Shown: in pieces, positions 919 through 36,805 of the stretch
How positions within the stretch are numbered: position 1 is the stretch's first letter
Layout of the letters: every line of letters begins with the position of its first letter
Origin: Colwellia sp. 20A7
GTDB taxonomy: Bacteria; Pseudomonadota; Gammaproteobacteria; Enterobacterales; Alteromonadaceae
Reading direction: 5' to 3'
Length of the DNA: 64,000 bases
Assembly (NCBI RefSeq): GCF_009832865.1
Contig: NZ_CP047130.1
Location: 1,736,001 to 1,800,000, forward strand
Translations under genes and position numbers: made by a program
The notes under the pieces: generated by a model
Databases searched by the model: none
What the model saw: only the letters and a program-made list of their open reading frames with translations
Told to the model about the DNA's origin: nothing

Positions 919-1242
919 TCAAAATACCATCTGTACTCTAGTGGGGGCTTTTGCTCTAACAGTATCAGATAGCAAAGTGAGCTCTCTTTCAAAGACATGT
1001 TTGTACATAAAAACAATTGAACATAATGCTAAGTTTTGAGTTGAAGATGTTACCTGCCTATTAACCGCTAAATAAGTGAGATAATTACTGACTTCTTGCT
1101 CTCCCATGTCCTTGGGGTGGCGTTTTTGGTTGAAGAGAATAAATCGTTTAATCCATAGTAAATACGTTTTTTCAGTTTGAATACTGTAATGCTTTGTACG
1201 GAGGATATGACGGATACTTTCAAGAAAAGGAGATGTAGACAT
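919..1242 (-). pseudogene. intI: Truncated integron integrase, N-terminal part only
   Basis: The product has 107 residues, against about 320 for a full IntI. It starts with SPFLESIRHILRTKHYSIQT and includes YLLWIKRFILFNQKRHP and YLAVNRQVTSSTQNLAL, the SAM-like core-binding domain typical of integron integrases. It stops just after RAKAPTRVQMVF, where family members go on to the catalytic domain with its Arg, His, Arg and Tyr residues; all of these are missing. The stop lies 15 bp from the junction with the AraC fragment, so the truncation coincides with the insertion edge. It is transcribed away from the cassettes, as expected. Inactive as a recombinase. Confidence 0.85.
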
Positions 1243-1456: not shown

Positions 1457-1541
1457 TAAATATTTTCTTAAATTTTAATCTTTCTAATTCATTGAAATTA
1501 TGGAATATTAAGCGTTAATAAATTAATTTTATGGGACGGAC

Positions 1542-1557
1542 ATTACTGAGAAGTCTC
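1542..1557. repeat. Third copy of the palindrome core, one arm shortened
   Basis: ATTACTGAGA, then AG, then TCTC repeats the core of the two upstream palindromes, but the second arm ends after four bases. It lies about 35 bp before the GTG start of the first cassette gene. A GCGTTAAT stretch at 1512-1519, a possible attI/cassette junction, precedes it. Confidence 0.5.
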
Positions 1558-1590
1558 CATAATAAGCTGTTAGCATTACAAGGAGGTTTG

Positions 1591-1854
1591 GTGACAACAT
1601 CTAAAAAAGAACTACGGTTTCTTACAACCTATATGACTCTGCTGTTAGTTTTATTAAGTTCTGATTGGATATTATCTTTAATAGGTTTTGAATATAATAT
1701 ATGGACAGATCCTTTTGAATATAATATATGGTCAGATCCTTTTGATATTATTAAATTTATAATTAAGCTCATGACTATTTATCTTTTCTGTTTTATTGGT
1801 AATAAGTTTTTTAGTTGGTTGTATTCTGCATCACCACAAAAAACTAAAGAGTAA
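1591..1854 (+). CDS. Small membrane protein in the first integron cassette
   Basis: I do not recognise this gene. An in-frame ATG exists at 1531, but GTG at 1591 is preferred because AAGGAGG sits at 1580-1586 just upstream and the longer start would run through the palindrome copy at 1542. The product has 87 residues with two hydrophobic helices (about residues 8-30 and 55-75), so it is probably an inner-membrane protein. An internal duplication, FEYNIWTDPFEYNIWSDPF, comes from a 27-bp tandem repeat. It is the first gene rightward of the integrase remnant, as expected for an integron cassette. An IS110 element interrupts the DNA soon after its stop, probably within its attC. Confidence 0.55.
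   Translation: MTTSKKELRFLTTYMTLLLVLLSSDWILSLIGFEYNIWTDPFEYNIWSDPFDIIKFIIKLMTIYLFCFIGNKFFSWLYSASPQKTKE
1686..1739 (+). repeat. 27-bp tandem duplication inside the cassette gene
   Basis: Two 27-bp units (1686-1712 and 1713-1739) differ at one base (GGACAG versus GGTCAG). They keep the reading frame and duplicate a nine-residue loop between the two membrane helices. This is a recent slippage-type duplication. Confidence 0.85.
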
Positions 1855-1904: not shown

Positions 1905-3075
<1,171 letters not shown>

Positions 3076-3116
3076 TGTATTATCCATACAAGAAATTGAA
3101 CTAGGACAAAAAAACA

Positions 3117-3178
3117 GTTGGCTTTTGCTCCTTCGTCGCTTATTTTAGCCAACAATTTTTTGCCTGTTAATTGGGCGT
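3117..3178. repeat. attC-like 3' part / dispersed palindromic repeat copy
   Basis: GTTGGCT (3117-3123) and AGCCAAC (3147-3153) bracket a 23-nt loop. AATTTTTTGCC, a small GCC/GGC hairpin and GGCGTTGG follow. The layout resembles the 3' part of the attC near 4975-5069, which has ACTATTTTTTGCC and then GCGTTAGGC. The stem and loop also match a chromosomal repeat at 36657-36705. It may be the attC remainder of the cassette split by the IS110 element, or a copy of a repeat family targeted by IS110 elements. Confidence 0.5.
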
Positions 3179-3179
3179 T

Positions 3180-3500
3180 GGTATGACTCCCCACGTCAAG
3201 TTAAATACACTGATCCTTATTCACTAATTTAAGAATCCTTTATATTCACTTCTATGATTAAGTGAGTTAACGCATAGAATGAAGCAAGTAATTTCGTCGG
3301 TTATCATGCTGATATTCGTGGATTATTAACCTATTGGTTAACAGCGCCTACCTTACTCATTTCGTCGTGACACCTGTCTTCAGTCTATGTTCGTGGTTCA
3401 ATAGCCGTTAGGCTATTGCCATCCTAACGCCGTCGGTGGTTGTGCCACACCCGATGCTTGATCCCATGCGCTAACTCAAAACTCTTCTCTATTAAAATAT
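3180..3500. other. Non-coding stretch downstream of the IS1111-type relic
   Basis: I see no gene here. It lies downstream of the minus-strand IS1111-type transposase fragment, where IS1111 elements keep their bridge RNA. It contains a perfect hairpin CAATAGCC-GTTA-GGCTATTG (3399-3418), then CCTAACGCC and GC-rich inverted stretches near 3430-3460. It may be the 3' end of that element. Confidence 0.35.
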
Positions 3501-3710
3501 TCATGCAGGCATCCTTGCTAAACGTAACTTCACATCAATGACAGGCAAGACAACTTCTCGTGATATTGCCCAAATATAGGCTATCATTTCTCTGGCGATA
3601 GCCGTAACAACCACATTACGATGCTTACCTTTGTGCATTAACCGGTTATACCTGCGACATAGCCTTAATTGCGCTTGCCATGCCATATCTATGACCTGAT
3701 CTTCCCCCGA
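3501..3710 (-). pseudogene. IS1111-type transposase, C-terminal remnant
   Basis: The visible product contains QVIDMAWQAQLRLCRRYNRL, then HKGKHRNVVVTAIAREMIAY and IWAI, the C-terminal tail of IS1111-subgroup transposases. Only about 70 residues remain of roughly 340, so the gene is a remnant. The reading frame upstream of residue 9 (above 3697) runs into what looks like the end of another IS, so the true junction is near 3697-3710. IS1111-attC elements are known to insert into attC sites, which fits its place inside an integron array. Confidence 0.75.
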
Positions 3711-3769
3711 TAAAACGGACACCAAAATCTAACTAAAGATGAGGTGTTACATGACTAAGGAAGACTACA
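3697..3769 (+). mobile_element. Possible IS3-like left-end remnant
   Basis: The block TGATCTTCCCCCGATAAAAC then GGACACC (3697-3723) looks like an IS3-family terminus, followed by GAGGTG and an ATG at 3751 opening a nine-codon frame (MTKEDYSGR). A similar CTAACTA, GAGGTGTTAC, ATG arrangement recurs at 5803-5826. The short frame overlaps the GTG start of the next gene. This is an impression from end-like sequence only; no transposase remains. Confidence 0.25.
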
Positions 3770-4972
3770 GTGGCAGGTAAGCTCGATAAAGTTGACAAAG
3801 CTTTTGCTTTTTTCAAAATATACTCAAACAACGCTACTTCTTTCAAATTAGATGAGTTAGCTAAAAATACTGGTTGGGGTCTTTCAACAGTACAAACGTA
3901 TAGTACTAAAAGGTGGTCTACATTTCTTAAGAAATCAAAAAGCTCCTTTTCAGTTGATAAATCTTTCAATAAATTTAATAAGAATACTTTTCGTCAACAT
4001 CATAGTCAGAAATATTCTGTAAAGAAATTCTTCTATCAACTATTAGTCGATAAAGCCGTAACAGCGTGTGTTTCCGCAATTGAAATTTATAATAAACCCG
4101 ACTTCAAATTTAGAGAAGAAAGTTTTTCGATTCTAATGATAAATGCTTGGGAGCTTTTACTTAAAGCCAAACTACTAGCAGATAATGACGACGATAAAGA
4201 GGCTATATATTTCAAGAATAAAGGAAGTATTGTCACAACTGCCTCTGGCAACCCAAAAACAATTTCAATTTCAAAAGCAATAAACCTACTAGAATCAGCC
4301 GGTATCTTAAAGAAGGTTGTTAGTGACAACGTAAGATTACTTATTGAGATTCGTGATGAGTCTGTACATTTTATTCATAACGATATGTCGTTAGCTGTAA
4401 AGGTACAATCTATTGGTATGGCGTCATTAAAAAACTTTATGACATTAACTATGGACTGGTTTGGTTTCGATTTTAAAAAATATAATTTCTATTTAATGCC
4501 TGTGTCATTCTTTCATCTATCTGACGTGGAAAGCTTTAGCATTGATAATAATTCAAAGGACAACTTAGTCAAACATCTTAATAAAGTTGAAAAGTCACAT
4601 GAAAATGATGACGATCCTCAATTTAGTGTTTCGTTAAAACTTGAAACTAAACTGGTAAAAACAACCTCAGATGAAGCGGTTCAATTCAGAGCGACAGATG
4701 ATCCTAACGCTCCTGAAATCAAAATATCAGAAGAAGATGTGTTAAAAAACTACCCTTATACTTATCAAAGCCTTTGCGATGTTTTAAGGAAACGATATGG
4801 AAACTACAAACAAAACAAGCAGTTTAATCAACTGATGAGAGACCTTAAAATTAAGGGTGATGAATTCTGTAAAGAAAGAAGACTAGAGCCTGATAATCCT
4901 AAAAGTATATATAAAATTTTCTACCATAGTAGAATTGTAGAGGAGTTTGATAAGCATTATCAGCGTAAATAG
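3770..4972 (+). CDS. DUF3644 protein with HEPN-like R-x4-H motif, integron cassette
   Basis: The product has 400 residues. Residues 20-55 look like a helix-turn-helix (KLDELAKNTGWGLSTVQTYS). Residues 85-235 carry the DUF3644 core: REESFSILMINAWELLLKAK at 115-134, an NVRLLIEIRDESVHF stretch near 187-201, and a segment SIGMASLKNFMTLTMDWF. R195 and H200 in RDESVH form the R-x4-H motif of HEPN ribonucleases. The C-terminal 100 residues are basic and could bind nucleic acid. The start is GTG, with TAAGGA about 8 nt upstream; a nine-codon frame from ATG 3751 overlaps it and may couple translation. It is followed closely by an attC-like site, so it is a cassette gene. A toxin or antiphage role is inferred from the HEPN motif and cassette setting, not shown. 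Confidence 0.75.
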   Translation: MAGKLDKVDKAFAFFKIYSNNATSFKLDELAKNTGWGLSTVQTYSTKRWSTFLKKSKSSFSVDKSFNKFNKNTFRQHHSQKYSVKKFFYQLLVDKAVTACVSAIEIYNKPDFKFREESFSILMINAWELLLKAKLLADNDDDKEAIYFKNKGSIVTTASGNPKTISISKAINLLESAGILKKVVSDNVRLLIEIRDESVHFIHNDMSLAVKVQSIGMASLKNFMTLTMDWFGFDFKKYNFYLMPVSFFHLSDVESFSIDNNSKDNLVKHLNKVEKSHENDDDPQFSVSLKLETKLVKTTSDEAVQFRATDDPNAPEIKISEEDVLKNYPYTYQSLCDVLRKRYGNYKQNKQFNQLMRDLKIKGDEFCKERRLEPDNPKSIYKIFYHSRIVEEFDKHYQRK

Positions 4973-4974
4973 TC

Positions 4975-5069
4975 ATGTAAGTTGCTCAAAAGGGCAACAA
5001 ACAGCTTGCTGTTTTCGTGCCTCAAACATTATAGCAAACTATTTTTTGCCTCTTAGCAAAGCGTTAGGC
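4975..5069 (+). repeat. attC recombination site of the DUF3644 cassette
   Basis: It begins just after the DUF3644 stop and ends with GCGTTAGGC (5061-5069), whose GTTAGGC is a perfect GTTRRRY core; the cassette junction is G/TT at 5063-5064. Upstream there is an imperfect fold with TTGC/GCAA stems and the stretch AACTATTTTTTGCC. The 5' core is less clear: GGGCAAC fits RYYYAAC poorly. The next gene starts 35 bp after the core, as in a cassette. Confidence 0.6.
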
Positions 5070-5103
5070 TAAATATTTCGACCATCGCACTCCGAGGATA
5101 AAC

Positions 5104-5658
5104 ATGACTGAAAAGCAGTTCGAAAAATTAAAATACTACGTGATTGCAGTTACTGTATTTTTCGTAGCTGGACATCTGTTGTGGGAGCATTTGAATGGTG
5201 GAATATTGAGCCATCACTTGATGCACCATCCTGGTTATCCTTTAATATCAAACTGGTGGGGGGTATTAATCCTCCCATTCTTGGCTTGGCTTTCTATAGT
5301 GCGGATAAAGAAGCGTATAACTCTTCAACCTAGTGACGCGCCTGAGAGAGCAAAGATTTTACGAGCCGTACTCATCGGTTTTTTTGGCATGCTGGTCTTG
5401 AGTCTTGTACAGTCAGTCAGTGTTATTTTTGGCTACGAGAACGTTGCAATGTACTTGTCGTTAGGGCTGGTAGTAGTCGGTTTGTTCCTGCCTATATACA
5501 AAGCGGAGTGTATTTTTGGTTATGTATTTGGCTCAATAGTTTTTACTGGAGCAGTAATTCCACTTATAGGTATATTGGTAATTGCGGGGATTTCATGGTT
5601 TTCTCACCTATGTATAAAGCCATTAGTTTTTCGAGTTCTTAGGGCGCAACCGCAGTAG
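5104..5658 (+). CDS. Cassette-encoded membrane protein of unknown function
   Basis: I do not recognise the family. The product has 184 residues and about five hydrophobic segments (near residues 10-28, 48-64, 88-108, 112-130 and 138-165), joined by a short basic cytoplasmic loop (IVRIKKRI) and a polar loop (PSDAPERAK). A His-rich stretch, LSHHLMHH, lies between segments one and two and could be a metal site. ATG at 5104 is preceded by GAGGA. The gene is flanked by an attC core at 5063-5069 and another attC-like site at 5663-5740, so it is a complete cassette. Base composition is richer in GC near the 3' end than in neighbouring genes, consistent with foreign origin. Confidence 0.65.
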   Translation: MTEKQFEKLKYYVIAVTVFFVAGHLLWEHLNGGILSHHLMHHPGYPLISNWWGVLILPFLAWLSIVRIKKRITLQPSDAPERAKILRAVLIGFFGMLVLSLVQSVSVIFGYENVAMYLSLGLVVVGLFLPIYKAECIFGYVFGSIVFTGAVIPLIGILVIAGISWFSHLCIKPLVFRVLRAQPQ

Positions 5659-5662
5659 TCTA

Positions 5663-5740
5663 GGCTAACAACCCACGTCATTCGGGGCCTGTGACCCCTG
5701 CGACGCTCACAAGTTCGCGCGCATGCGCGAGGCGTTATCG
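5663..5740 (+). repeat. GC-rich attC-like site after the membrane-protein cassette
   Basis: GGCTAAC (5663-5669) and GCGTTATCG (5732-5740) resemble the outer cores. Between them an imperfect stem CGTC-ATTC-GGGG / CCCC-TGC-GACG and a GCGCGCATGCGCG stretch fold back. The site is far richer in GC than the surrounding DNA, so it probably came with the cassette from another host. The last core deviates from GTTRRRY. Confidence 0.55.
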
Positions 5741-8642: not shown

Positions 8643-10964
8643 ATGAAAAGATTATTAACTTGTATTATTACTTGCACTTGTTTACCTGCTTTAGGGGATG
8701 ATATTGCTGCTGTTGAAAAAATTAGTATATATGGACAAACACCACTTTCATCAAATGCAGTTAGCGAGAAAAGTATTTTTGGTAGTGTTCAGATGATCAA
8801 TGCGAAAGCGCTTGATGAATCTCAAAGTATTTCATTAGCAGAGCATATGAAAAATCAGTTAACGAGTGTCCATATCAATGATGTACAAAATAATCCTTTC
8901 CAACCTGACGTGCAGTACAGAGGTTTTACAGCATCACCATTACTAGGCTTACCCCAGGGAATTTCTGTTTATTTAAACGGTGTACGATTTAATGAACCTT
9001 TCGGTGACACCGTTAATTGGGACCTTATACCCCTTGCGGCAGTTGATACGGTATCTTTATATTCCGGCTCTAATCCTGCTTTTGGTCAAAATACCTTAGG
9101 TGGTGCATTAGCTTTACAAACAAAAAATGGTTTTAGCTATACAAAAAATGAACTTGATGTACGTGTTGGTAGTTTTGGACAACAGCAATATACGTTGCAG
9201 TCGGGCGGTAATAAAGGTAATTGGGGTTATTATGTTTTGGCCAATCATTACAAAGAAGACGGCTGGCGAGATTATTCGGAAAGTGAGTTGAATCAGCTGT
9301 TTGCAACACTAAGTTATGTCACTGATGTACGTACTGTTGAGTTTACTTTTGCAGGTAATGACAATGAAATGCTTGGTAATGGTGCTATACCTGAAATACT
9401 TGCTGATTTAGCAAGCAGAGATGCTATTTATACGCAACCAGATAAAACTCATAATCGTTATAAGCAATTTAGTCTTAAAACAGATAGTGTTATTAATAGC
9501 GAAATGTCATGGCAGGCTAATGCCTATTATCGTCAAAACGAAATTAATAGTATTAATGGCGATGACAGTGACTATGAAGAGTGTGAATTTGGTGAAAGCT
9601 ACAGCTTATGTGAAGAAGAGGAAGAAGATGAGTTAGAGCTGGTGCATTTTGTTGGTTATGATGAAGGGGTTTTTCTCAGTGATCTGAGCGATATAGATCC
9701 TGATACCGTTGATGGCACACTTAATACTGGTTTCACTGATAATGAAAGTTATGGCGCAGCATTACAATTTGTTAAGTTAGGTAAGTTGGCCTCTTTTGAT
9801 AACGAATTTATTTTTGGTTTAGGTATAGATAAAGCAAATATTCATTTTAATAGTGATACACAATTTGCCGTACTTCATAATGAAACAGTAACGGATGATC
9901 GCTCAGTAACGGGTATTGGTTTTTATGATATGGAATCACGTGTTGATTTAAAAGTTGACACAAAACAGCAGTACCTTTACTTTTTGAACGCTATATCCAT
10001 TAACGATAAACTTACTATTAACCTTGCTGGTCGATATAATCATGCTCATATAAGTATGCAAGATCAAATAGACACGGGAGAAGGATCACTTAATGGTGAA
10101 CACTCTTTCAATCGATTTAATCCAGCGATATCTGCTGATTATCAGCTTTCTTCTGAATATATGGTTAAATTAAGTTACAGCGAGTCATCAAGAACACCTA
10201 GCCCAGCAGAACTGAGCTGTGCAGATGAAAATGACCCTTGTAAATTACCTAATGGCTTTGTGGCCGATCCTCCGCTTGAACAGGTTGTGGCGAAAACAAC
10301 AGAAGCCTCGTTAAGTTATAACAAAGATAATTTTTCTGCACTTGCAACGGTTTTTTCAACGATTAGCTATGAAGATATTATTTTTCAACAAGCGACAAAT
10401 AAGTCTAATCAAGGTTACTTTATCAACCTTGATAAAACTCAACGTCAAGGTGTTGAACTTGCCTTTAACACCCAAATAAAAGCGGTGGATTTTGGCGCTA
10501 GCTATAATTTATTAAAGGCAACTTTTGAATCACCTTTTGTTTCTTTTAGCCCTGTGAATCCGTTAGGCGCGAATCGACAAGTTAATCCAGGCGATACGAT
10601 TCCGGGTCAACCAGAGCATCAAGTTAAGTTTCACGCTAATTGGCAGATTAATGATGCTGTTAACCTTGGCACTGAGTTTTTATATGCCTCGTCATCATAT
10701 TATCGTGGTGATGAAGCAAATGAAAATAAGAAGATACCGTCGTATTCTGTCACCAATATTTACCTAAACTATCAAGTTACCGAACAGTTACGATTATCAG
10801 CTAAAGTTGATAATGTCTTTGATCGTGAATTTGATACCTTTGGTACGTATGGTGAAGCGGATGAAGTGTTAGAAGATATATACCCAGATGCTGATTTTGA
10901 TGAGTATTTTGTTGGACCATCAAGACCACGCTCGGCAAGTATTAATCTGAACTATCAATTTTAA
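8643..10964 (+). CDS. TonB-dependent outer-membrane receptor with acidic loop
   Basis: The chosen ATG at 8643 gives a standard signal peptide (MKRLLTCIITCTCLPALGDD); the frame is open 26 codons further up from a TTG that adds no sensible sequence. A TonB-box-like VEKISIYG follows, then a plug domain (VQYRGFTASPLLGLPQGISV, LNGVRFNEPFGDTVNWDLIP, GSNPAFGQNTLGGALALQTK) and a beta-barrel ending in YQF, as outer-membrane proteins do. The barrel holds an unusual insert at about residues 307-335 with two cysteines and a run of Glu/Asp (YEECEFGES then LCEEEEEDELEL), probably surface-exposed and able to bind cations. It lies upstream of an ABC importer, suggesting joint uptake of one ligand. Ligand unknown. 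Confidence 0.88.
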   Translation: MKRLLTCIITCTCLPALGDDIAAVEKISIYGQTPLSSNAVSEKSIFGSVQMINAKALDESQSISLAEHMKNQLTSVHINDVQNNPFQPDVQYRGFTASPLLGLPQGISVYLNGVRFNEPFGDTVNWDLIPLAAVDTVSLYSGSNPAFGQNTLGGALALQTKNGFSYTKNELDVRVGSFGQQQYTLQSGGNKGNWGYYVLANHYKEDGWRDYSESELNQLFATLSYVTDVRTVEFTFAGNDNEMLGNGAIPEILADLASRDAIYTQPDKTHNRYKQFSLKTDSVINSEMSWQANAYYRQNEINSINGDDSDYEECEFGESYSLCEEEEEDELELVHFVGYDEGVFLSDLSDIDPDTVDGTLNTGFTDNESYGAALQFVKLGKLASFDNEFIFGLGIDKANIHFNSDTQFAVLHNETVTDDRSVTGIGFYDMESRVDLKVDTKQQYLYFLNAISINDKLTINLAGRYNHAHISMQDQIDTGEGSLNGEHSFNRFNPAISADYQLSSEYMVKLSYSESSRTPSPAELSCADENDPCKLPNGFVADPPLEQVVAKTTEASLSYNKDNFSALATVFSTISYEDIIFQQATNKSNQGYFINLDKTQRQGVELAFNTQIKAVDFGASYNLLKATFESPFVSFSPVNPLGANRQVNPGDTIPGQPEHQVKFHANWQINDAVNLGTEFLYASSSYYRGDEANENKKIPSYSVTNIYLNYQVTEQLRLSAKVDNVFDREFDTFGTYGEADEVLEDIYPDADFDEYFVGPSRPRSASINLNYQF

Positions 10965-13187: not shown

Positions 13188-14016
13188 ACTCAATGTTGCC
13201 ATTAAAGATAAGTATTATGGAAATAGCGAAACTCCGGTATTGGCGAAGCTTAATTTTAGTGTGAAGCCGGGAGAATTTGTTGCCATTATCGGTCCTTCAG
13301 GGTGTGGGAAAACTACGTTATTAAATATGATTAGTGGTCTTGAATCATGCGTGGGGCAGCATATTAATTATCGCCATAGCTTAGAAAATAGTGATGTTAT
13401 AAACAATCATAAGGGCTTAGAAAGTGATAGCTCAAAAAGTAACGGTGAAAAAAATAATCGCACCAAGGGTGAATGCCTAGTAAATAAGCAGCCTAGTCGT
13501 ATTGGATATATCTTTCAGCAACCAAGATTAATGCCATGGTTGACCGTGCGAGAAAATATCGAATTAGTATTAGATCCAACACAGTTCAACAAAGTAGAAG
13601 GGTTATTAGCACAAGTTGGTTTAGCACAAAAAGGTGAATATTTTCCTAGCCAGCTATCTGGCGGAATGCAGCGACGGGTTAGTATTGCTCGTGCTTTTGC
13701 AATAAACCCACAATTGTTATTATTAGATGAGCCATTTAATTCTCTCGATGCTCCTACTGCTGGTCGGTTGAGAAAGCTATTAATTGACTTGTGCACAGAA
13801 AAAAAGACGACAGTCGTGTTTGTTACTCATGATTTACAAGAGGCTATATATTTAGCAGATCGCATTATTTTCTTAAGTGACTCACCTTGCACTATGATCC
13901 ATGAATCTATTATTAATTTACCTAAACCCCGTTCAGAATCTGGTATTGCTGAATTAGCATTTCAAGCGAAACTCATAACGCAATTTCCGTTTTTACTGTC
14001 GGGTATTATTGACTGA
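13180..14016 (+). CDS. ABC importer ATP-binding protein, SsuB/TauB type
   Basis: TTG 13180 is the preferred start: AGAGGAAA lies upstream at 13167-13174 and it overlaps the permease stop by 8 nt. The in-frame ATG at 13126 would overlap the permease gene by 62 nt. Motifs are complete: Walker A GPSGCGKTT, Q-loop FQQPRLMPW, signature LSGGMQRRVSIARAF, Walker B LLLLDEPFNSLD and H-loop VTHD. An extra segment of about 45 polar residues (NNHKGLESDSSKSNGEKNNR is its core) lies between Walker A and the Q-loop, unusual for this family and likely a surface loop. It powers the importer. Confidence 0.88.
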   Translation: MIELNVAIKDKYYGNSETPVLAKLNFSVKPGEFVAIIGPSGCGKTTLLNMISGLESCVGQHINYRHSLENSDVINNHKGLESDSSKSNGEKNNRTKGECLVNKQPSRIGYIFQQPRLMPWLTVRENIELVLDPTQFNKVEGLLAQVGLAQKGEYFPSQLSGGMQRRVSIARAFAINPQLLLLDEPFNSLDAPTAGRLRKLLIDLCTEKKTTVVFVTHDLQEAIYLADRIIFLSDSPCTMIHESIINLPKPRSESGIAELAFQAKLITQFPFLLSGIID

Positions 14017-14032
14017 TTTTTGGAACAACTTA

Positions 14033-15364
14033 ATGACACCTAATCTCAATACAGAAGCGAAAAAAGCAACGGTTAAGCATTGTCATTCCACGCGCGCAAA
14101 CATTGTTGTTTCTCCGCTACGCCAGCAAATATCACAAGAACTACACAATAGACCATCACCACAAGTTTATGCACCAACTTCGATAACGCACATGGCGGTT
14201 CGTTTAACCGAAAAGGATCAAGAACAAGAATATCAGCAAATATATTCCTTATGCCAACGTTATAATGTTAACCCACCTAGCCGCGATGCAAGTTGCTATT
14301 ATCAAGATTTTGGTGGTTTTGAATTACGTTGGGAACGTCATTTGGAGTTTTCAAGTTATAGTTTTATTCGAAAAGGGCTAGGAGAATACCTTTTCGACGG
14401 TTATGCAACAGAGTTTGTGCCACAAGAGTGGTTCGACAATATTGTTGGTGAATTAGTGAGTGCGGTAAATTTAATTATTAATAAAGATAAAATCTCAGAA
14501 GAAGTATTACACTGTGCATTTGAAGGACATCAAATATTGGGAAGTCGTGTTTCTGATAATAGAGCAAATGTTTATGCTTCTTTTAGAGTACATAGTGATG
14601 GTTTTGACCGTATTATCATTCAAAGTGATTTACTGAATAGCTATCAAGCTGGTCGGTTAATACAACGGATGTTAGAAATACAAACCTACCAAGTGATGGC
14701 ACTCTTGAGTTTACCTATTGCTCGCTCTTTATCACCTAAGGTGGCGCAAATGGAAAATGATTTAGTCAAAATAAATCAGGAAATGGCAGGTGTTGGTGAA
14801 AAAAATGATAGTAAGATGCTTGATAAACTCTCAGATTTAGCTGGAAATACCGAGCAACTGATCGCTGATATTAGTTATCGTTTTAGTGCCACAAACGCTT
14901 ACTATGAGTTAGTTTGTGCTCGACTTGAACAACTTAAAGAAACAGACATTGAAGGTATTGAACGCATAAATGAATTTGTTACCCGACGATTAAGTCCCGG
15001 TATTCGAACTTGTCAGGCATTATCTGTTCGTTTGGAAGGGTTAACACGTCGAATTGCTCGGGCAAGTAGTTTACTGAGAACTCGAGTTGACTTAACCATT
15101 GAACAACAAAATCAACAATTATTATCTGCGATTAACCAACGTGGTAAAGTGCAATTGCGTTTACAACAAATGGTTGAAGGTGTTTCTGTTGCGGCGATGG
15201 CTTTTTACTTGATGGGGTTGCTAGATTATGTACTTAATGCAGTGACTCTTGCAGGTTTTGAGCTTAATAAAACGCTCGTGAAAGGTTTTTCTGTTCCAAT
15301 TTTTTTACTCATTACGTGGTTATTTGTGCGACTTGCTATTCGTTATGTCAAAAAAGCCCCATGA
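14033..15364 (+). CDS. DUF3422 membrane-anchored protein
   Basis: The N-terminal part contains ELHNRPSPQVYAPTSITHMA, the opening signature of DUF3422. The middle is helical with likely coiled coil (residues about 240-380), and two hydrophobic segments near the C-terminus (VAAMAFYLMGLLDYVLNAVT and VPIFLLITWLFVRLAIRY) anchor it, as known for the family. Function is unknown; an old family note suggests a regulatory role that I cannot confirm. A TTG at 14009 overlapping the ATPase stop by 8 nt is an alternative start and would couple translation. Its place directly after the importer genes suggests it serves that transporter. Confidence 0.8.
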   Translation: MTPNLNTEAKKATVKHCHSTRANIVVSPLRQQISQELHNRPSPQVYAPTSITHMAVRLTEKDQEQEYQQIYSLCQRYNVNPPSRDASCYYQDFGGFELRWERHLEFSSYSFIRKGLGEYLFDGYATEFVPQEWFDNIVGELVSAVNLIINKDKISEEVLHCAFEGHQILGSRVSDNRANVYASFRVHSDGFDRIIIQSDLLNSYQAGRLIQRMLEIQTYQVMALLSLPIARSLSPKVAQMENDLVKINQEMAGVGEKNDSKMLDKLSDLAGNTEQLIADISYRFSATNAYYELVCARLEQLKETDIEGIERINEFVTRRLSPGIRTCQALSVRLEGLTRRIARASSLLRTRVDLTIEQQNQQLLSAINQRGKVQLRLQQMVEGVSVAAMAFYLMGLLDYVLNAVTLAGFELNKTLVKGFSVPIFLLITWLFVRLAIRYVKKAP

Positions 15365-35440: not shown

Positions 35441-35620
35441 ATGTTCGGAATATTTAAGAAAGATCCAATTAAAAAGTTAAATAAGGCTTATGAAGCTAAA
35501 CTTGAGCTAGCGATGAATGCACAAAGAAGTGGTGATATTAAGTCTTACGCTATGATTACCGCTGAAGCTGAAATCATTAGAGAAAAAATAGTAGTGTTAG
35601 AAAGTTCTACCGCAGATTAA
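35441..35620 (+). CDS. Small DUF6435 protein
   Basis: The 59-residue product (MFGIFKKDPIKKLNKAYEAK then LELAMNAQRSGDIKSYAMIT) matches the DUF6435 pattern of short, charged, helical proteins common in marine gammaproteobacteria; function unknown. AGGAG lies at the right distance for ATG 35441, whereas the ATG at 35435 is too close, so the shorter form is chosen. Probably cytoplasmic, perhaps membrane-peripheral through its basic N-terminus. Monocistronic. Confidence 0.8.
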   Translation: MFGIFKKDPIKKLNKAYEAKLELAMNAQRSGDIKSYAMITAEAEIIREKIVVLESSTAD

Positions 35621-35644
35621 TGTGTTAATTATAAATAATAAACA

Positions 35645-35680
35645 GTTGGTTAAATCAATAAGTAACGAAGGACAACCAAC
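35645..35680. repeat. Palindromic repeat copy, also a possible bidirectional terminator
   Basis: GTTGGTT (35645-35651) and AACCAAC (35674-35680) flank a loop containing AACGAAGGA. Stem and loop resemble the copies at 3117-3153 and 36662-36700. It lies between convergent genes, so it may serve as a terminator here. Confidence 0.5.
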
Positions 35681-35741
35681 TATTCTTTATGTTCTCAATA
35701 CAACGAGATTGTTATAGTGAGAATGTTATAGAGAAAATTTA

Positions 35742-36616: not shown

Positions 36617-36635
36617 TGAGTTACTCGGTATTGGT

Positions 36636-36705
36636 ATGACGCCTTATTAATGGCGTAAAATAGTTGGCTAAAATAATCGATGAGTGAGCAAAAGCCAACT
36701 ATTTT
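36636..36705 (-). repeat. Chromosomal copy of the attC-like palindromic repeat
   Basis: AAAATAGTTGGCT (36657-36669) and AGCCAACTATTTT (36693-36705) are perfect 13-bp arms around a 23-nt loop. Read on the minus strand, the loop and the trailing ACGCC-ATTAATAA-GGCGT hairpin align with the integron copy at 3116-3178, with conservation in the loop as well as in the stems. It is upstream of both flanking genes, so it is not a terminator for either. Confidence 0.7.
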
Positions 36706-36805
36706 TTTGTTTCTGTTTTATTTAGTTTACAATATATTAGGATAATTCATTGTAAACTATCCTTGAATCTAAAACATCGAACCGAAACTTTTTTAAAGAG
36801 TAATA

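Follow-up and report, generated by a model that had tools for sequence, protein, structure and literature searches.

Proteins with the DUF3644 domain form an already known class, since they were among the newly defined HEPN families of Anantharaman et al. (2013, PMC3710099). The closest described system is the EC042_2821 family, which according to the family description in that paper overlaps DUF3644, is fused to winged-helix, endonuclease and zinc-ribbon domains and is found in restriction-modification (R-M) operons. Within the literature searched, which covers few subscription journals, DUF3644 and EC042_2821 are named in this one paper, and PDC-S19, a single-gene phage-defence candidate in PADLOC, is not mentioned at all. 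A further cassette-borne HEPN protein is the integron cassette protein of PDB 3jrt, which the listing in PMC3710099 sets apart from DUF3644. Phage defence in integrons has been described by Darracq et al. and Kieffer et al. (as cited in PMC13092281).

The protein described here comes from the window, the whole stretch of 64,000 nucleotides that we analysed. With the EC042_2821 type, as described in PMC3710099, it has in common the Pfam family, the combination of winged helix and HEPN domain and the conserved Rx4H motif, and defence-type neighbours are seen in part of the family. As the class is known, what our analysis adds is the recurrent carriage of DUF3644 genes in integrons and at the orf30 site of P2-like prophages, neither of which is described for DUF3644 in the accessible text of PMC3710099, the absence of any recognisable endonuclease domain and the decay of the locus.

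The DUF3644 protein and its domains

The gene and the parts of its product are as follows.

3770..4972, plus strand: DUF3644/PDC-S19 protein, 400 aa, GTG start, from the list of open reading frames (PF12358, E 2e-47; PADLOC PDC-S19, E 3.4e-107)
3773..3955, plus strand: predicted N-terminal winged helix-turn-helix, residues 2-62
4031..4462, plus strand: HEPN four-helix domain in the predicted models, residues 88-231
4151..4165, plus strand: Ex3K motif E128-K132 in helix 2
4352..4369, plus strand: RDESVH, i.e., R195-x4-H200, at the end of helix 3
4763..4951, plus strand: small C-terminal domain of the predicted models, residues 332-394, helix-helix-strand-strand-helix

The assignment to DUF3644 made in the initial annotation is confirmed by the Pfam profile search, in which PF12358 matches residues 92-275 with 161.6 bits (curated cut-off 27.6); genome-wide this is the single PF12358 match. 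The PADLOC profile PDLC04954 (PDC-S19, 330 positions), for which the library gives no curated cut-off, covers residues 88-399 and thus leaves the N-terminal winged helix outside. At E <= 0.001 there are 1360 homologues, and PF12358 is present in all 120 homologues listed. Among 196 genomes of the bacterial family to which the window belongs, DUF3644 was matched in 17, in 15 of these above the cut-off.

The N-terminal region had been annotated as HTH-like. Two predicted models and structural matches to winged-helix regulators agree with this reading, and the ortholog L018 gives weak HTH matches below the cut-off; a winged helix is also present at the N-terminus of the EC042_2821 type. The HEPN domain is predicted as a four-helix bundle (helices at 88-108, 115-138, 182-200 and 206-231, the second model agreeing within 2 residues) with an insert between helices 2 and 3. 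Structural matches were obtained to AF0298 (2hsb) and to the HepT toxins of the MNT-HEPN pairs, with sequence identities of only 10-16%. Unlike HepT, the window protein has no recognised MNT partner and carries extra N- and C-terminal domains.

R195 and H200, proposed at the outset as an R-x4-H signature of HEPN ribonucleases, lie where the Rx4-6H motif of the superfamily is expected, helix 3 ending at 198-200 in both models. Both residues are invariant in the 121 rows of alignment A2 (window protein and 120 listed homologues) and in the 123 rows of alignment A5, in which identity reaches down to 17%, so that the poor conservation that would have spoken against the signature is not seen. Besides the window protein, A5 includes 22 of the homologues listed (120 in total), 13 of the 16 loci from the search of the bacterial family (not L015 and the partial L016 and L017), 78 of the 80 genome loci (not L023 and L044) and 9 of the 10 viral loci (not L116). 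The genome and viral loci (78 + 9 rows) had been found via other motifs of the protein, and therefore the choice of rows favours those motifs and not R195/H200. The residue following the arginine is polar throughout (D in 113 rows, N in 9 and H in 1), and the Ex3[KR] motif of helix 2 is retained as well, E128 and K132 being each present in 119/123 rows. Membership of the HEPN superfamily is almost certain, and RNase activity of the protein is probable.

The C-terminal domain (332-394) resembles a winged helix in the order of its elements only and was not matched to any known fold. It occupies the position of the endonuclease domain in EC042_2821. Whereas the EC042_2821 type, as presented in PMC3710099, has a C-terminal restriction-endonuclease-like PF18740 domain, the Pfam profile search found no PF18740 match in the window protein up to E 1. 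Downstream of residue 232, A5 has no acidic or lysine column conserved in at least 90% of the rows, the nearest being E322 and D394 (110 rows each) and E321 (109 rows). The poorly modelled residues 240-330 leave room for a remote REase-like fold. A distant relative, L011, has a sub-threshold PF18740 match (22.2 bits, cut-off 24.9).

The integron locus

Around the gene we find the following features.

919..1242, minus strand: truncated integron integrase, N-terminal 107 aa (TIGR02249, E 1.4e-30, positions 1-101 of 315)
1531..1854, plus strand: 107-aa ORF, probable first cassette, no family match in profile searches
1905..2861, minus strand: IS110-family transposase, encoded by the element within the upstream attC (PF02371, E 8.1e-19; PF01548, E 1.2e-18)
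3082..3183, plus strand: right-hand part of the upstream attC (R1, E 3e-19; both halves read in the sequence)
3190..3697, no strand assigned: multi-copy repeat between upstream attC and gene (99% copy at G000:C1:2419233, five further copies at 75%)
3697..3759, no strand assigned: end of a second multi-copy repeat, stopping 10 nt before the GTG (four further places at 84-100%)
4975..5069, plus strand: attC of the DUF3644 cassette (R1, E 3.4e-16; R2, E 9.8e-11; 88.6% identity to L107:6411-6497)
5104..5658, plus strand: 184-aa ORF after the attC, probable next cassette, no family above curated cut-off

Two covariance models were used for the attC sites. The genome has a single integron integrase above the cut-off, which is complete (G000:C1:4132119-4133063, 467.7 bits, cut-off 265), and the locus beside it, L107, carries an attC array. 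Nine clean sites of L107 (alignment A3, one start corrected by eye) gave a consensus hairpin of 29 pairs, 9 of them with changes on both sides, and from these sites model R1 was built. The wider model R2 was trained on 52 matches in L107 and ten relative loci.

That the cassette has an attC of its own, as initially proposed, is borne out by both models. The site begins 3 positions past the end of the stop codon of the DUF3644 gene; its R' box GTTAGGC is intact (5063-5069), whereas R'' is without the AAC core, so that the set of boxes is incomplete. Directly 5' of the gene neither an R' box nor an attI was seen, the nearest attC ending 587 nt upstream behind repeat debris. As we read the sequence, this upstream attC would have been split by the IS110-family element, its left end GCTAACAAG lying near 1876-1884 and thus parted from the right-hand part. 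Elements of the IS1111 family that target attC sites are already on record (PMC11187229). The repeat at 3190..3697 is probably IS-like debris. Behind the 184-aa ORF a site at about 5662-5740 was spotted by eye and was not found by R1 or R2.

Taken together, the broken upstream attC, the imperfect R'', the truncated integrase and the repeats characterise the window cassette as a decayed remnant. Over 105 residues the integrase fragment shares 39% identity with the complete integrase, which might act in trans on the window cassette.

Some further elements were noted. The interval from the integrase fragment to the first cassette ORF has three copies (one with 2 mismatches) of the 20-nt palindrome TTACTGAGANNTCTCAGTAA, at 1321-1340, 1427-1446 and 1543-1562, with 0.06 expected by chance; an exact match to its 18-nt core is absent from the loci compared, including the complete integron, except for L099, which covers this very place. 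Two attC-like hairpins, at 35612-35713 and 36634-36734, lie about 1 kb apart in an ORF-poor stretch of the window; the latter scores E 1e-7 on the minus strand with R1, both are weak with R2, and they may be orphan attCs or a related mobile hairpin. L107 holds three 341-aa ORFs (4619-5644, 9697-10722 and 13427-14452), each followed after a few hundred bases by the right half of an attC in which other sequence stands in place of the left half, which is the placement expected for an attC-targeting element.

Relatives in integrons, prophages and R-M neighbourhoods

Of the 106 relative loci, 102 were searched with R1 (29 + 73; L016, L017, L117 and L118 left out) and 99 with R2. At E < 1e-3 an attC starts between -5 and +4 nt from the DUF3644 stop in L003, L005, L018, L019, L022, L030 and L031 (R1) and in L035 (R2). 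L045, L057, L077 and L078 have weaker matches (best E between 0.066 and 0.88) placed on or close to the stop, at -5 to -12. Directly upstream an attC was found only in L007/L023 (one locus), L020/L113 (one locus) and L060. On the 73 loci (1.18 Mb) R1 gave 12 matches, 5 of them at the DUF3644 stop (L030, L031, L057, L077, L078), and in the control, made up of 20 arbitrarily chosen stretches of 20 kb from nine genomes in the window's bacterial family, one weak match (E 0.11). In a tree from which the N-terminal domain was omitted, the integron label, given to 17 rows including the window and the weak cases, changes at least 6 times against the other labelled groups, with well-supported branches forcing 3 changes. 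The attC matches at the stops and these label changes lead us to conclude that integron carriage of DUF3644 is recurrent. L003 and L005 form a distant DUF3644 branch within the same bacterial family (25-26% identity, tblastn), and the attC sites of their cassettes are of the same type (E 9.5e-27 and 3.5e-20).

Relatives are also encoded on ten viral contigs, eight of which fall into the winged-helix clade with 56-65% identity; within this set L113 is the integron of L020 and L116 begins inside the gene. In L109, L110, L111, L114 and L115 the DUF3644 gene is flanked by the baseplate gene V and the tail completion gene S and runs on the opposite strand, and of this pair L116 shows S only. In P2 this is the place of orf30, one of three accessory-gene sites of P2-like phages according to PMC3091744. 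The portal gene comes directly after S in L114 and L116, which differs from the listed P2 gene order, and the relative in L112 is near an integrase. We also considered the defence hotspot of Rousset et al.; as this is placed between gpA and gpQ in PMC9122126, the V-S site is a different one.

The gene neighbourhoods were surveyed for defence islands, as suggested in the initial annotation. The core set comprises 73 loci (L025-L097), and 64 of the 72 included in A5 have at most 20 residues before the HEPN domain. In 25 of the 73 a member of ten recurrent neighbour families lies within five ORFs; the profile matches of the family representatives are to R-M proteins of type I, II, IIG or III, to helicases or to PDC-M19 proteins, and 55 of the 56 neighbour ORFs are on the plus strand, as is the DUF3644 match. 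Searched by tblastn, the ten representatives match in 24/73 core loci (18/67 without the six source loci), in 0/14 loci of the winged-helix clade and in 0/20 control stretches, which come from one bacterial family and are a rough guide only.

Five DUF3644 loci also have relatives of the paired PADLOC candidates PDC-M19A/B, assigned by profile scan in L039 and by similarity in L052, L058, L092 and L097. In L014 (1210-3320) the DUF3644 gene overlaps the start of a SIR2-like ORF (23.6 bits, cut-off 24.5), possibly as a two-gene system.

Possible function of the protein

The HEPN fold, the invariant motif and the carriage of relatives in integrons and prophages support the initial reading of the gene as an antiphage candidate. 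That the genes are carried in integron cassettes as well as at an accessory site of P2-like phages is an independent reason to expect a benefit for the carrier. On balance we favour a stand-alone mobile phage-defence protein made up of a winged helix, a HEPN RNase domain and a C-terminal domain, and we regard an antiphage role of the window protein as rather likely. R195-x4-H200, assisted by E128 and D196, would form the active site, and the flanking domains would keep the protein inactive, probably as a dimer or higher oligomer. Since no antitoxin gene is evident beside the DUF3644 gene, control probably resides in the protein itself. A phage-derived signal, most likely sensed by the N- and/or C-terminal domain, might free the protein, whose paired HEPN sites could then cleave host or phage tRNA or mRNA in a metal-independent reaction, with translation and infection being stopped in what would be an abortive outcome.

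If this is right, a widespread candidate family becomes accessible to a defined experiment with one gene, two point mutants and a phage panel, natural variants with and without the winged helix are available for locating the sensor, and the proposed storage of phage defence in chromosomal integrons gains a concrete gene. More tentatively, the winged-helix clade may represent a one-gene immune receptor and effector, with either the winged helix or the C-terminal domain detecting a product of the phage and turning on the HEPN RNase, the module having moved repeatedly between chromosomal integrons and P2-like orf30. Bacteria and prophages would then share one defence gene via two unrelated transfer systems.

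An integron HEPN toxin could also slow translation under general stress or in dormancy without being directed at phages, as suggested in PMC3710099 for HEPN domains of integron cassettes, and DUF3644 cassettes do occur in several integrons. The P2-like orf30 carriage and the R-M-rich neighbourhoods of other branches point instead to phage conflict and the open reading frames of the window cassette include no evident partner antitoxin, so that we consider a stress RNase unlikely. Toxin-antitoxin pairs with a stabilising function are common in integrons and prophages, and the protein might accordingly be an addiction toxin for its integron or prophage with the antitoxin encoded elsewhere. However, the V-S interval of the five P2-like contigs yielded no other gene of at least 60 aa, if gene calls antisense to V or overlapping S are set aside, and on its own strand the window cassette has one ORF of at least 80 aa. 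A very small or an RNA antitoxin could still lie beside the gene; even so an addiction function appears quite improbable.

Equally far-fetched in our view is a regulator with a DNA-binding winged helix, in which the HEPN bundle, as in MtlR-like proteins, would serve for dimerisation or sensing and not for catalysis: the figure given in PMC3710099 for the motif in MtlR is conservation in only 60%, against 123/123 here, and 63 of the 123 A5 rows have at most 6 residues before the HEPN domain and thus no winged helix. All these readings are compatible with the window copy itself being a silent passenger with an intact ORF in an inactive integron remnant. The truncated integrase (919-1242), the upstream attC interrupted by the IS110-family insertion, the imperfect R'' and the repeat debris reaching to 10 nt before the start are in line with such a state. 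We nevertheless hold it to be somewhat doubtful, as the ORF is full-length with its motifs intact and its product is 95% identical to P0001, a full-length homologue of metagenome source.
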